Source of the DNA: an uncultured Opitutia bacterium
GTDB taxonomy: Bacteria > Verrucomicrobiota > Verrucomicrobiia > Opitutales > Opitutaceae
Assembly: GCA_903877135.1 (NCBI GenBank)
Contig: CAIRCN010000006.1
Coordinates: 1 to 64,000, forward strand
DNA length: 64,000 nt
Reading direction: 5' to 3'
The notes under the pieces are model-generated. The model had not been told where the DNA came from and did no database searches. It saw nothing but the letters and a program-made list of their open reading frames with translations. This document shows, piece after piece, positions 235 to 61,255 of the stretch; positions within the stretch are counted from its first letter, which is position 1; every line of letters starts with the position of its first letter. The translations under genes were made by a program, and so were the position numbers.

Positions 235-263
235 AAACCGTCCGCTACGACGGGCGGTTTTTT
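235..263 (+). terminator. Intrinsic terminator after the pilin-like gene
   Basis: A 10-base stem (AAACCGTCCG at 235-244 with CGGGCGGTTT at 251-260, one G-U pair) closes a 6-base loop and is followed by a run of T to 263. It lies 30 bases past the pilin stop codon and separates that gene from the membrane glycosyltransferase that starts at 329. Confidence 0.85.
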
Positions 264-328
264 GTTGGCCGGCACTTTTGCCATCAGGCTTTCTTTTCCC
301 CGTCGGACCGGCCAAGCTCCCGCCCCGC

Positions 329-2197
329 ATGAACCCGCCGCCCCTTTCGTTCATCGTCTCGGACAGGCGCCTCTGGCTGTTCGCGCTCTCTGGCGCCCTC
401 GCTGTGGTGCTGGGCTTTTTCGCCCTCACCGGCGAGCCGGCGATCGTCTTCGTCTCCCGCACCGGCTATTGGTTTGTGCTGACCGCCTTCATCCTGTTCC
501 TGCGGGCGCTCTGGCTGACATTCCGCGACGACTTGCGGACATTGCGCCCACGCAACCTCGACTGGACCTCGGTGGCTGTTGTCGCGCTTGGCGGCATCGT
601 GCTCCTCGTGCACGAGACTTTCGGGTTTAAGATCGTCATGGATGAAATCATGCTCCTCGGCACCTCGATGAGCATGCACTTCGACAAGACCGTGCTCACG
701 CCGATGCGCGGTAACGACATTCAGGGTGTCTTCGTGATCCTCGACGGCATGATGGACAAGCGCCCGCTGTTCTTCCCGTTTCTCCTCTCGCTGCTGCACG
801 ACCTGACGGGCTACCGGCCGGAAAACGCCTTCCTGCTCAACGGCCTTCTCATCTTCGTCTTTCTCGGCATGGTGAACCACGTGGGACGGCTCCTCGCCGG
901 CCGGCGCGCGGGCTGGCTCGGCGTCCTGCTCTTCGTCGGACTACCGCTGCTCAGCCAGAACGCCACCGGCGGCGGCTTCGAACTACTCAACCTCGTGATG
1001 ATCCTTGCGACGCTGCTGCTCGGCGCACGCTTTATTGCCAGACGCGACGAGGCGTCGCTCACGGCATTCTGTTTTGCCGGCCTACTGCTCGTCCAGGTGC
1101 GCTACGAGTCCATGCTCTACCTCCTGCCCGTCGCGCTGATTGTCCTGTGGGTCTGGCTCGGAGAGCGCCGGGTCGTGCTGTCGTGGCCAGTGATTTTCGC
1201 CCCGCTCCTCCTCGTCGCCTATCCGCTCCAGCACCGGATTTTCGAGCTCCGCACCTCGGCCTGGCAGATGGAGAGCAGGCCCGACTACACGACACCTTTT
1301 GCACCGGCCTACTTCCTCGACAACCTCTCGCACGCGGCGAATTTCTTCTTTGCGGACCCCAAGAACCAGCCGAGTTCGCTCACGCTTTCGATCCTCGGCT
1401 GGCTGGCGCTTCCCTTCTTTCTTCTCTTTCTCGCCAAAAAGGTGCGCGCCCTCCGCGCCGAGACGCCTGCCTTTGCCGCCACCGCGTTTTTCACGGTCGG
1501 GTTTGCCGCTCAGTTTATCCTGATGATGTGCTATTTTTGGGGCAAGTTCGACGACCCCGTTATCCGCCGTCTGAGCCTGCCAACGTATCTCTGGCTCGTC
1601 CTCGCGGTGCTGGCCGTATTACCGCAATTCGCCAGCGCAGTCTTCCAGCGCGTGCTACTTGGCGTCGCGGCCTTTGGCGTGATCGCCAGCGGCGTTCCGT
1701 CCATGGCGGCGCATGCCTACAGCCAGGAATACCTGCCGGGCCGCGAGACGGCGTGGCGGCGGCAGTTCATCGCCGACCAGCTGCGGAAGGATTATCTGAT
1801 GATCGACAACGACTCGGTCCTCTGGATCGCGCACGAGATTTCCGCCACACCGGTCTATCAGGCGCTGAAACGGCGCAAGGACATCGTCTTTCACTTCCGC
1901 AACCGCACCTTCTCAAGCATTTTTGTGTTTCAGCGCCTCAACATCGACCCGGAGACTGGGCACATGACGCTGCGCGAAGGCGACGATCTCGGCCCGGATT
2001 ATGTGCTCGAGCCCGTGCGCGAGGAGCGCCTGCAAACGCTCACGCTCACCCGCATCAGCCGCGTGAAGGAAATCCGCGACGGTGCTGTCTCGCTCACCGC
2101 GCCCGACACAAAGGAGCCGGTCGTGCCCAAGAGCCGCGAGGAGATCGAAAAGCTCCGCAAGGCCTACCTTGAGCAGTTCGTGAAACAGCTCCCGTGA
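329..2197 (+). CDS. GT-C-type membrane glycosyltransferase-like protein (paralog 1 of a tandem pair)
   Basis: This 622-residue protein is mostly hydrophobic, with about a dozen likely membrane segments over roughly residues 1-450, followed by a polar C-terminal domain of about 170 residues. That is the layout of the GT39/ArnT-like GT-C superfamily, which moves sugars from polyprenyl-phosphate donors on the outer face of the cytoplasmic membrane. An acidic pair in the first long loop (FKIVMDEIML) matches where GT-C enzymes place the catalytic acid. The segments LLSLLHDLTGYR and QNATGGG recur in the next gene, so the two are tandem duplicates. The ATG at 329 is preferred because 17 extra residues from 278 are polar and lie close to the terminator. 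Donor and acceptor are unknown. Confidence 0.75.
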   Translation: MNPPPLSFIVSDRRLWLFALSGALAVVLGFFALTGEPAIVFVSRTGYWFVLTAFILFLRALWLTFRDDLRTLRPRNLDWTSVAVVALGGIVLLVHETFGFKIVMDEIMLLGTSMSMHFDKTVLTPMRGNDIQGVFVILDGMMDKRPLFFPFLLSLLHDLTGYRPENAFLLNGLLIFVFLGMVNHVGRLLAGRRAGWLGVLLFVGLPLLSQNATGGGFELLNLVMILATLLLGARFIARRDEASLTAFCFAGLLLVQVRYESMLYLLPVALIVLWVWLGERRVVLSWPVIFAPLLLVAYPLQHRIFELRTSAWQMESRPDYTTPFAPAYFLDNLSHAANFFFADPKNQPSSLTLSILGWLALPFFLLFLAKKVRALRAETPAFAATAFFTVGFAAQFILMMCYFWGKFDDPVIRRLSLPTYLWLVLAVLAVLPQFASAVFQRVLLGVAAFGVIASGVPSMAAHAYSQEYLPGRETAWRRQFIADQLRKDYLMIDNDSVLWIAHEISATPVYQALKRRKDIVFHFRNRTFSSIFVFQRLNIDPETGHMTLREGDDLGPDYVLEPVREERLQTLTLTRISRVKEIRDGAVSLTAPDTKEPVVPKSREEIEKLRKAYLEQFVKQLP

Positions 2198-59554: not shown

Positions 59555-61255
59555 ATGAGCCTGCCTGCCAAAACACCTCAACTGCCCCAGTGGATCTTTT
59601 ACCTGACCGACGCCGTGCTCCTCGGCGCGGCCGGGTTTATCGCCAGCCAAAGCGCCCACCCGCTTTCGCACACCGCAACCCTCGCCATCACAATCTGCAT
59701 CATCGCCGGTGCCATCGTGGGCCTCGTGCCACTCGTCGCCCGCTACGAGCGCGAGAAAAACGAGACCCTCGACGACCGCCAGCGCGCGCTCGAAGCCCTC
59801 GCCCTGACCCTCAACACCGCGGCCGAGCAGATCAGCATCGCCGCCAGCGGCCTCCATTCCATTGCCGAACTCGCTCAGAAAAACCTGAAGCACGCCGAGC
59901 AGCTCCCGCACAAGCTCCAGGAGAAGATCGCCGAGTTCAACGCCCAGCTCGACAACGCCCGCGAGGACGACCGCGAGGAACTGGAAAAGGAACTCGCCGA
60001 CCTGCGCGCCTCCGAGAGCGAGCGCCTCCAGTCTGCCTCCGACAAAATCCACAAGGCTGTCACCGACCTCACGAAACTCGATACCGCCGCGCAGAAGCAT
60101 CTTGCTTCCACCGCCGCAGCGCTCGCCCAGGCGCAAGCCGGCACCGCTACCGCACTCAACGACGCCACCACCGCCGCCAACCACTCCCTCGCCACCGCTT
60201 CCGCCGAGGTCAGCCGGGCGCTTTCGTCGGCCGCCGTTGATGCCAGCCGCGCTGTCGCCGCCGCGCAAGCCGTCGCCTTGGCCGAGATCGAGGCAAAACT
60301 CACTGCGCAGACCACCACCGCGGTCGCCGCCATCGAGGCTGCCCTGAGCAAACCCGCGGTCATCGCCGCACCTCCGCCCATCCCCGAGCCCATCGCAGCA
60401 ACCACCGACGAAGCGCCCACAGCGCCGGTGGAACCGCCCACGCTTGCCGTCGAGCTATCGCCCGCGCCCAAGCGCCCCCGCCGGCCCCGTCGCGAAGAAC
60501 CTGTTGCCACCGAGGCACCCTCCACTCCAGCCGAGCCGGAGCAGAAATCCGAAATTGGAAGTGCGAAAACCGAAGGACCCGCCGGCGAGACACCAGCCAT
60601 TCCCGCCGAACCAGGTGCAGCGGTGACCACCGCTGAAGCTCCCTTGGCGCCCGTCGTTGAACCCAATCCAACATCCGAAATCAAAAATCCAAAATCCGAA
60701 GAGCCCGCCCCTGTGCTCTCCGAGGCAATGGTAAAGCTTGAACCCATCGTGCCGCCCACCGCAGAGCCCTTCACCGGTCAGACACCGACCGTAGTAGAAT
60801 CAAATTCAAAATCGGAAAATCAAATTCCAAAATTCGAGGAGCCCGAGACAAAACCCGCCCGCCGCCGTACCCGCAAGCCTGCCGCCGAGCCCGGCACGGA
60901 GCCCCTGCTTGGCCTCGCGGCCGACGAATTCTCCCAGGCCGCGCCCGACGAGGCATCCTCTATCTCCGAGGTTGTGGAAAAAGTCATCACCTCCGACGGT
61001 GCCACCCGCCTGCTCGTCACAGCTTACATCGGCATTGGCAACCGGCTGTTTGTCCGCGGTGAGGGTCCAGGCCTGAGCTGGGAGAAAGGCGTGCCGCTGC
61101 AGTTCGTCTCCATCGGCAAGTGGCGCTGGGAATCCGCTGAAGCCACCGCACCCGTCGCCTGCAAGCTCTACAAGAACGACGAGATCGAATGCACCGCCCT
61201 CGGAATGCTCATCCTCGACCCCGGCTACCAGCAGGAAGTCTCCGCCAAGTTTTGA
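59555..61255 (+). CDS. Membrane-anchored coiled-coil protein with C-terminal beta domain
   Basis: This 566-residue protein has two N-terminal membrane segments (WIFYLTDAVLLGAAGFIAS; LAITICIIAGAIVGLVPLVA), then a long Ala-rich coiled coil (about 70-260) rich in heptads such as LQEKIAEFNAQLDNARED. A disordered Pro/Glu-rich region (about 265-465) contains AT-rich inserted segments (60542-60840). The C-terminal domain (about 470-566) has ITSDGATRLLVTAYIGIGNR, LFVRGEGPGLSWEKGVPLQF and GKWRWESAEAT, which resembles Ig-like or carbohydrate-binding domains. No known family fits overall. It may tether the envelope or organise partners; the role is unknown. Confidence 0.75.
   Translation: MSLPAKTPQLPQWIFYLTDAVLLGAAGFIASQSAHPLSHTATLAITICIIAGAIVGLVPLVARYEREKNETLDDRQRALEALALTLNTAAEQISIAASGLHSIAELAQKNLKHAEQLPHKLQEKIAEFNAQLDNAREDDREELEKELADLRASESERLQSASDKIHKAVTDLTKLDTAAQKHLASTAAALAQAQAGTATALNDATTAANHSLATASAEVSRALSSAAVDASRAVAAAQAVALAEIEAKLTAQTTTAVAAIEAALSKPAVIAAPPPIPEPIAATTDEAPTAPVEPPTLAVELSPAPKRPRRPRREEPVATEAPSTPAEPEQKSEIGSAKTEGPAGETPAIPAEPGAAVTTAEAPLAPVVEPNPTSEIKNPKSEEPAPVLSEAMVKLEPIVPPTAEPFTGQTPTVVESNSKSENQIPKFEEPETKPARRRTRKPAAEPGTEPLLGLAADEFSQAAPDEASSISEVVEKVITSDGATRLLVTAYIGIGNRLFVRGEGPGLSWEKGVPLQFVSIGKWRWESAEATAPVACKLYKNDEIECTALGMLILDPGYQQEVSAKF
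60542..60840. repeat. Three AT-rich islands inside the coiled-coil gene
   Basis: Within otherwise GC-rich coding sequence lie three stretches (about 60542-60577, 60663-60702 and 60793-60840) built of variants of ATCCGAAATC, AAAATCC and CAAAATTC. They keep the reading frame and translate to related peptides (KSEIGSAKTEGP, TSEIKNPKSEEP, KSENQIPKFEEP). This suggests short repetitive elements that entered the gene in frame. Confidence 0.6.

Follow-up and report, generated by a model that had tools for sequence, protein, structure and literature searches.

Short tandemly repeated repetitive (STRR) sequences are heptanucleotide tandem arrays, very small, that belong to several sequence families and are located mainly between genes or in RNA genes. 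The cyanobacterial STRR heptanucleotides and very small dispersed repeats were reportedly treated by Elhai in 2008. The closest published case to the Opitutaceae arrays described below is that of the TAACTGA heptamer direct repeats, found in Beggiatoaceae, Cyanobacteria and Bacteroidetes with a patchy distribution over genomes (MacGregor 2015, PMC4679880). According to the portions of that paper at hand, TAACTGA repeats mostly precede a start codon in forward orientation, and their most numerous class stops 1 nt short of it. Some are reversed inside ORFs, including one that falls in a predicted surface loop, and in one Bacteroidetes one set directly follows a stop codon, also reversed (PMC4679880). 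ORFs are touched by 25 of ~169 sets, and the forward unit has stop codons in all frames. The spreading of heptamer repeats is left unexplained there, and Verrucomicrobia go unmentioned in the text of that paper. A literature search for heptamer or intergenic repeats of Verrucomicrobia returned nothing on point among the matches listed from open-licence PMC papers. The Rickettsia palindromic elements (RPEs) are dispersed as well, in frame inside conserved protein genes and also in intergenic regions; the text at hand describes them as stem-loops of 105-146 bp with terminal inverted repeats (PMC2229807).

The window, that is, the whole stretch of 64,000 nt analysed here, has a GC content of 65% and carries three AT-rich islands within a single gene (Table 1). 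The encoded protein is composed of N-terminal helices, a long coiled coil, a disordered linker rich in Pro, Ala and Glu, and a conserved C-terminal beta domain. An AlphaFold model based on a 14-sequence alignment shows helices at residues 13-32 and 39-259 and strands at residues 476-563. Residues 261-473 have pLDDT values mostly below 50 and are followed by the confidently predicted beta domain; with a pTM of 0.26, the relative placement of the domains carries no meaning. Comparison with Pfam identified 0 families. The gene has a match in 51 of the 57 genomes searched. In more distant genomes the match is mostly confined to the C-terminal part, and paralogs may be among these matches. Gap-rich columns of the ortholog alignment reveal that the length of the linker is variable. 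The initial annotation was right in placing three islands, in frame and encoding similar peptides, inside the disordered segment of a coiled-coil gene.

Table 1. Host gene, linker and heptamer islands of the window
Feature	Position (nt)	Strand	Residues	Profile score (bits)	Remarks
Host gene	59555-61255	+	566 aa		ORF and start call
Linker coding sequence	60335-60976	+	~261-474		pLDDT mostly <50; gap-rich alignment columns; contains all three islands
Island 1	60545-60574	+	331-340	32.5	degenerate heptamer array; absent from ortholog L033
Island 2	60665-60700	+	371-382	55.6	heptamer array; counterpart at aligned place in L033
Island 3	60802-60837	+	416-428	49.7	heptamer array; absent from ortholog L033

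A repeat search within the window groups the islands into one family, with copies at 60547-60583, 60673-60709 and 60811-60847, the second and third being 76% and 62% identical to the first. At 60665-60697, TRF reports a period of 7 with 4.7 copies of the consensus AATCCAA. When up to 2 mismatches are allowed, AATYCRAAATYCRAAA occurs 7 times in the 64 kb, every time within 60546-60832; dinucleotide shuffles predict 0.15 occurrences in the 64 kb. Arrays were scored with a cyclic 7-state profile of the heptamer unit. The three islands have the top scores of the window, the next best place reaching 23.5 bits and the best score among 3 Markov-1 resamples being 19.4 bits. Several distinct units had been named for these islands at first; they are better read as a single 7-nt unit, AATCCAA/AATYCRA, with variable positions 4-6. 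We call this unit family 1 (cut-off 30 bits) and a second unit, TTCAACY, family 2 (cut-off 28 bits).

The family 1 unit is not restricted to the window. The own genome (G000; 4.23 Mb in 87 contigs) contains 43 matches to AATYCRAAATYCRAAATYC with up to 2 mismatches, versus 2 for the reversed-pattern control. A looser heptamer pattern gives 104 matches versus 7 for the control and, with at most 1 mismatch, places one heptamer consensus at 27 sites. At that stringency, matches are found in 31 of 61 Opitutaceae genomes, with a patchy distribution, and the 61 genomes together yield 380 repeat matches versus 17 control matches. In a census of the phylum, 94 of 288 genomes have a match, again patchily; the control is high in some genomes, so that single matches mean little. 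All these tallies (51/57, 31/61 and 94/288), like the Y1 transposase counts given below, take in the own genome. Carriage by phages was considered as well: an exact 25-nt AATCC array occurs in 15 IMG/VR stretches (14 contigs), twice in three of them. The proposal that the islands are interspersed repeats is therefore borne out, copies being present elsewhere in the genome both between genes and inside other genes. The further proposal that they spread within a tolerant linker holds with the qualification that the linker is one place among many, since loops of core enzymes and gene edges also hold arrays.

The segment reading GETPAIPAEPG, pointed out in the initial annotation as a neighbour of the islands, is present at 60584-60616. 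The stretch coding for it is found, with up to 3 mismatches, at 6 places of the genome, the own place being the sole exact one, versus 1 for the control. One of the other five places, 1457-1480 of the window, matches 60584-60607 with 2 mismatches, and these two matches in the window exceed the number in each of 100 shuffles. Exact 15-nt matches to the stretch occur at 7 loci, all covering the window's own place. With one degenerate pattern, there is no clear sign that this stretch is a second dispersed repeat.

Orthologs of the window gene were scanned at 46 loci, the own locus and 45 others, some of them partial and some perhaps from the same species. No island of at least 30 bits is present at 42 of the 45 other loci; the ortholog of the same-genus genome G001 has none. 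Such an island was found at L033, L060 (G025) and L069 (G030, on the opposite strand), and weaker matches of 24 and 21 bits at L056 and L059. In the alignment with L033, its island lies opposite island 2 (PNPTSEIKNPKSEEP versus STPESEIQIPKLEEP), and opposite islands 1 and 3 there is either a gap or different sequence. Since it has this counterpart, island 2 may be older than islands 1 and 3; it may be common to the window and L033 by descent, or the same place may have been hit twice. The two observations named beforehand as fatal to a spreading repeat, a lack of other genomic copies and orthologs with the same islands at the same places, are thus at odds with what we find.

Fourteen ORFs of the own genome with an internal array were compared with NCBIfam. 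Four have no match at the family cut-offs and ten match a family: an AMP-ligase (PRK09274), an MsbA-like ABC transporter, SucB, RF3, a PDH E1-like protein, MutL, UvrA (two arrays), FPP synthase, HemF and a PhoH-like protein. The arrays are in frame within UvrA, HemF, RF3, MutL and other proteins. Sites with and without arrays were compared using one genome per species, the nearest genome belonging to another species; at this distance no empty site is near-identical, and neither a target-site duplication nor a donor came to light. In HemF, the loop between NVRFFCA and WWFGGG reads ESEIEDPKSKVQNPV in the own genome and GPDTATPV in the same-genus G001. The empty site CAGPDTATPVWWFGGG of G001 compares with CAESEIEDPKSKVQNPVWWFGGG in the own genome, the loop counting 7 codons versus 14. 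G021 HemF has its own AATCC-type array in this loop, and in G005 the loop is occupied by another heptamer family (CATTCAACTTTCAACCTTCAACCTTCAACC, HSTFNLQPSTQ). No family 1 array is present at 21 of 23 HemF loci, several of which have other inserts there. As in the HemF loop, a family 1 array followed by cgtctggtggtt was seen in G070 (L158); HemF of G002, which belongs to the same genus as G070, has no family 1 array.

In UvrA, 28 loci extend to the loop preceding LLLLDEP, and 5 of these carry a family 1 array in it (own genome, G001, G021, G017 and G003). The second UvrA array is absent from G001. UvrA of G004 contains three arrays at places other than those of the own UvrA arrays, and at one of its sites the array lies within an insertion (FKAPGRRGRRAPARASQPSALNSQPTYALSLP versus FRANAKLPPLSLP in G000). 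A third heptamer family may be present in UvrA of G002, judging from a peptide. In RF3, the loop that bears the own array reads like TVPGLPQPTARE at 7 of 17 other loci and varies at the rest; G004 has a CTCAACY array there and G001 the peptide QNPKSGIED without a scoring array. The length of the RF3 loop is similar with and without an array. A syntenic block was compared over stretches that have between 3 (G016) and 9 of the 13 genes called in G000 in common. It contains 4 family 1 arrays in G000, 1 in G001 and 4 family 2 arrays in G004, and none in G018, G022 and G016. In sister genomes, the sites are thus either empty or, for the loops of HemF and RF3, taken by a different heptamer family. 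Taken together, the HemF, RF3, UvrA and syntenic comparisons indicate that different heptamer families occur in the same proteins across genera and, for HemF and RF3, in the same loops. The RF3 and HemF sites look like loop replacement rather than insertion, so that a conversion-type process may have acted instead of simple insertion.

Family 1 was surveyed as 120 arrays of at least 30 bits in six genomes (G000, G070, G024, G002, G025 and G021), at loci picked by repeat matches. These were all 27 sites with at most 1 mismatch plus three with 2 in G000; all sites among the matches listed in G070, G024 and G002, the number in G002 being an "at least" figure; all those listed in G025 except one in L060; and two stretches of G021 with 5 of its 11 listed places. 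One locus, L169, has no array of 30 bits. The family 2 survey comprises 38 arrays from 20 picked stretches and L097. For both surveys and for the syntenic block, genes were called with a codon-usage gene finder, some calls near gene starts being doubtful for family 2. Of the 120 family 1 arrays, 71 are wholly within called genes, 2 partially, and 47 are between genes. The coding arrays are in sense orientation in 68 of 71 cases (binomial p 5e-17, which, like the p value given next, is too small because arrays common by descent are counted more than once). The three antisense ones (L091, L160 and L172) lie in putative gene calls. For family 2, 14 of 16 coding arrays are sense and 2 antisense, with 3 more partial ones in antisense.

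The arrays have a preferred length and preferred ends. The median length is 33 nt for family 1 (middle half 32-37) and 30 nt for family 2. Phases were taken from the same profile that found the arrays, for all 120 arrays of family 1 and 37 of the 38 of family 2. The first base is at phase 0 (AAT...) in 67 of 120 family 1 arrays, compared with a fraction of 0.18 in a random-cut simulation that assumes random GC-rich flanks (p ~1e-23). The last base is at phases 2-4 in 90 of 120. Start and end phases agree between coding and non-coding copies. In 47 of the 67 phase-0 starts the preceding base is C, A being excluded by construction. Family 2 arrays start at CYTTCAAC in 22 of 37 cases and end at TTCAACY in 22 of 37.

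Modulo 3, the lengths of family 1 coding arrays are evenly distributed (24, 24 and 23); the reading frame is therefore not kept by array length alone. The frames are unevenly used: among 38 sense coding arrays that start with AAT, the first base occupies codon position 2 in 22. As pure arrays, AATCCAA, AATCCGA, AATCGAA, AATCGGA, AATTCGA and AATTGGA are free of stop codons in six frames; a pure AATTCAA array is open on the sense strand only, and TTCAACY likewise. A fraction of 0.504 of all heptamers is stop-free on both strands. This property therefore permits coding copies and is no proof of adaptation.

For arrays between genes, positions were analysed in 45 of 47 cases for family 1 and in 17 of 19 for family 2. 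Where a family 1 array points to a start codon, the median distance is 4 nt, with 27 of 35 arrays within 10 nt and 16 of 35 within 3 nt; where it points to a stop codon, the array is within 10 nt in 10 of 10 cases. Family 2 is less strict (5/8 within 10 nt of a start, 3/9 within 10 nt of a stop). In spacers with 20 or more free nt, it is mostly the pointing end that lies closer to a gene: 31 of 36 cases in family 1, 15 of 17 in family 2. Examples upstream of genes are the arrays before hisA and frr. The genes downstream of further arrays are, by eye, what we take to be rpsD and rbfA. RNA genes have arrays at their edges too: one ends 3 nt before a tRNA-Leu gene (L089) and the start of a family 2 pair lies 25 nt past an SRP RNA gene (L226). 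By eye, L087, L204 and L176, from three genera (G000, G025 and G024), show arrays just upstream of apparently the same gene start; in G000 the gene behind the L087 array is thioesterase-like, below family cut-offs. L152 and L173 (G070 and G024) appear to be the same spacer, with an array at each edge and different sequence between.

Most arrays are solo. Where neighbours on opposite strands lie within 450 nt of each other, outside or partly inside called genes, they face outward in 8 versus 0 cases for family 1 and 9 versus 0 for family 2, a total of 17 versus 0. One inward pair was found inside a single gene (L214). Spacers between inverted arms measure 14-393 nt. As RNA, six inverted pairs fold into hairpins, the z scores being -2.7 to -6.1. 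Two solo family 1 arrays, one of them island 2 of the window, fold to 0 kcal/mol, and the hairpin is accordingly rejected as a general feature.

Heptamers seem to be favoured beyond one family, on small numbers. A set of 630 kb, made up of the window and of loci selected by protein orthology independently of the repeat, contains 7 period-7 tandem arrays, two of them in L037, and 3 period-14 arrays that look heptameric. None of the remaining periods between 4 and 30 is represented more than twice. A Markov-2 control has no tandem arrays. The period-7 arrays, in L037, L102, L105, L116, L134 and L150, are of the CTTCCGC, TAAGCTC, GTTGGAT, GTTGAAG, ATTAGGA, GTGAGTT and GTTCAGG types. By eye, intergenic CTGACAT-like and ACTCGCT-like tandem heptamers are also visible beside family 1 at ~2640-2715 of L159 (G070) and at ~1935-2000 and 2592-2660 of L181 (G024).

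We propose, with a probability of about 0.75, that the islands are copies of a short, dispersed, discrete heptamer repeat of ~32-33 nt that is lineage-specific and survives where it does little harm. The unit usually starts with AATCC... and ends with ...AAAATC or ...AAAATCC, and we infer that it has been copied from place to place as such. Copies would arise lineage by lineage and persist at low-harm places, namely in-frame loops and linkers of proteins and the edges of intergenic spacers. Those in coding sequence would be kept on the strand whose translation is hydrophilic (NPKSKIQ/NPKSEIR repeats). As 7 is prime to the codon, a long array runs through the three frames and repeats as 7 amino acids, and the commonest heptamer variants have no stop codon on either strand. 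Selection against harm would then account for the strand and place of the arrays. Points against the proposal are the strict position next to gene edges, which exceeds what mere tolerance predicts, the replacement-like RF3 and HemF sites, the uneven use of frames and the counterpart of island 2 in L033. The three copies in the window gene add length to a disordered linker, and their functional effect is probably small.

If each array were instead a microsatellite grown in place from a chance seed by local replication slippage, without dispersal, independent seeds should yield unrelated units. One consensus is found at 27 own-genome sites with a near-empty control, array length and end phases are non-random, and outward neighbours (17 versus 0) would be unexpected. 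We consider slippage unlikely on these grounds, even though tandem heptamers of several sequences occur in these genomes, the units are degenerate and the host linker tolerates changes of length. A role as regulatory RNA or translation signal, which we judge slightly less probable still, would make the arrays unstructured, A-rich leaders before start codons and the coding copies by-products. The high proportion of start-pointing non-coding family 1 arrays ending within 10 nt of the start, as before hisA and frr, the unfolded state of the two solo arrays, and a precedent proposed for TAACTGA repeats (PMC4679880) speak for it. However, all ten stop-pointing family 1 arrays are just as close to a stop codon, the edges of the tRNA-Leu and SRP RNA genes hold arrays as well, and those inside UvrA, HemF and RF3 serve no start codon; the window copies would be left unexplained. 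As a whole explanation, the translation leader is rejected, since coding copies, stop-codon edges and RNA-gene edges do not fit. Finally, protein-level selection for linkers rich in Lys, Ser, Asn and Glu, with the repeats as a by-product, would agree with the hydrophilic sense peptide and with the similar peptides that the three islands encode in the linker. It appears very improbable to us: the islands are AT-rich in a window of 65% GC, a DNA period of 7 is read in all three frames, and the same DNA unit is present in non-coding spacers.

A Y1 transposase was considered as carrier of the dispersed repeat. Y1 transposase counts correlate weakly with family 1 (rho 0.37, p 0.004, kinship ignored) and give rho -0.15 with family 2. 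Among 8 genomes without a Y1 match, family 1 occurs in none and family 2 in 2. As carrier, the Y1 transposase is thus unsupported for family 2 and weak for family 1. A broader reading, which we advance tentatively and at somewhat less than even odds, is that Opitutaceae harbour an undescribed kind of mobile heptad element. Such elements, discrete and ~30-33 bp long, would fall into several sequence families, have fixed ends, outward inverted pairs or solo arms and a unit that, being prime to the codon, is readable in any frame, and would recolonise the same core-enzyme loops across genera via some copying machinery. If the dispersed repeat is the right explanation, core enzymes of one bacterial family have been repeatedly lengthened by copies of a tiny DNA repeat. 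Sister genera in which the loops of HemF, RF3 and UvrA either carry or lack an insert would then provide a natural insertion series for measuring protein tolerance, and the family would offer a clean system for finding what spreads heptamer repeats.

With the STRR kind, the present arrays share a 7-nt unit repeated in tandem at many dispersed sites. Terminal inverted repeats of the MITE type would be in line with the outward orientation of opposite neighbours (17 versus 0), yet most arrays are solo. Like REP/REPIN sequences, as described in the text at hand of PMC3116915, the arrays are short units that occur in inverted pairs as well as alone. Unlike them, the two solo family 1 arrays that were folded give no hairpin and have no palindromic core of their own, family 2 occurs without a Y1 transposase match, and arm spacers vary from 14 to 393 nt. 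In-frame copies within conserved protein genes recall the RPEs as the available text presents them (PMC2229807); in contrast to these palindromes of 105-146 bp, the coding copies here are ~33 nt long and heptamer-periodic, and the one coding array that was folded is unstructured. Preferred array ends and consistent outward pairs are found here, and none are described for TAACTGA repeats in the portions of PMC4679880 considered. Judged by the same portions, arrays inside called genes (71 of 120) contrast with the 25 of ~169 TAACTGA sets that touch ORFs. The two cases nevertheless have in common heptamer direct repeats, a patchy distribution and forward arrays ending near start codons. With AATCCAA or TTCAACY as the unit, the Opitutaceae arrays are placed like TAACTGA repeats without being members of that family.
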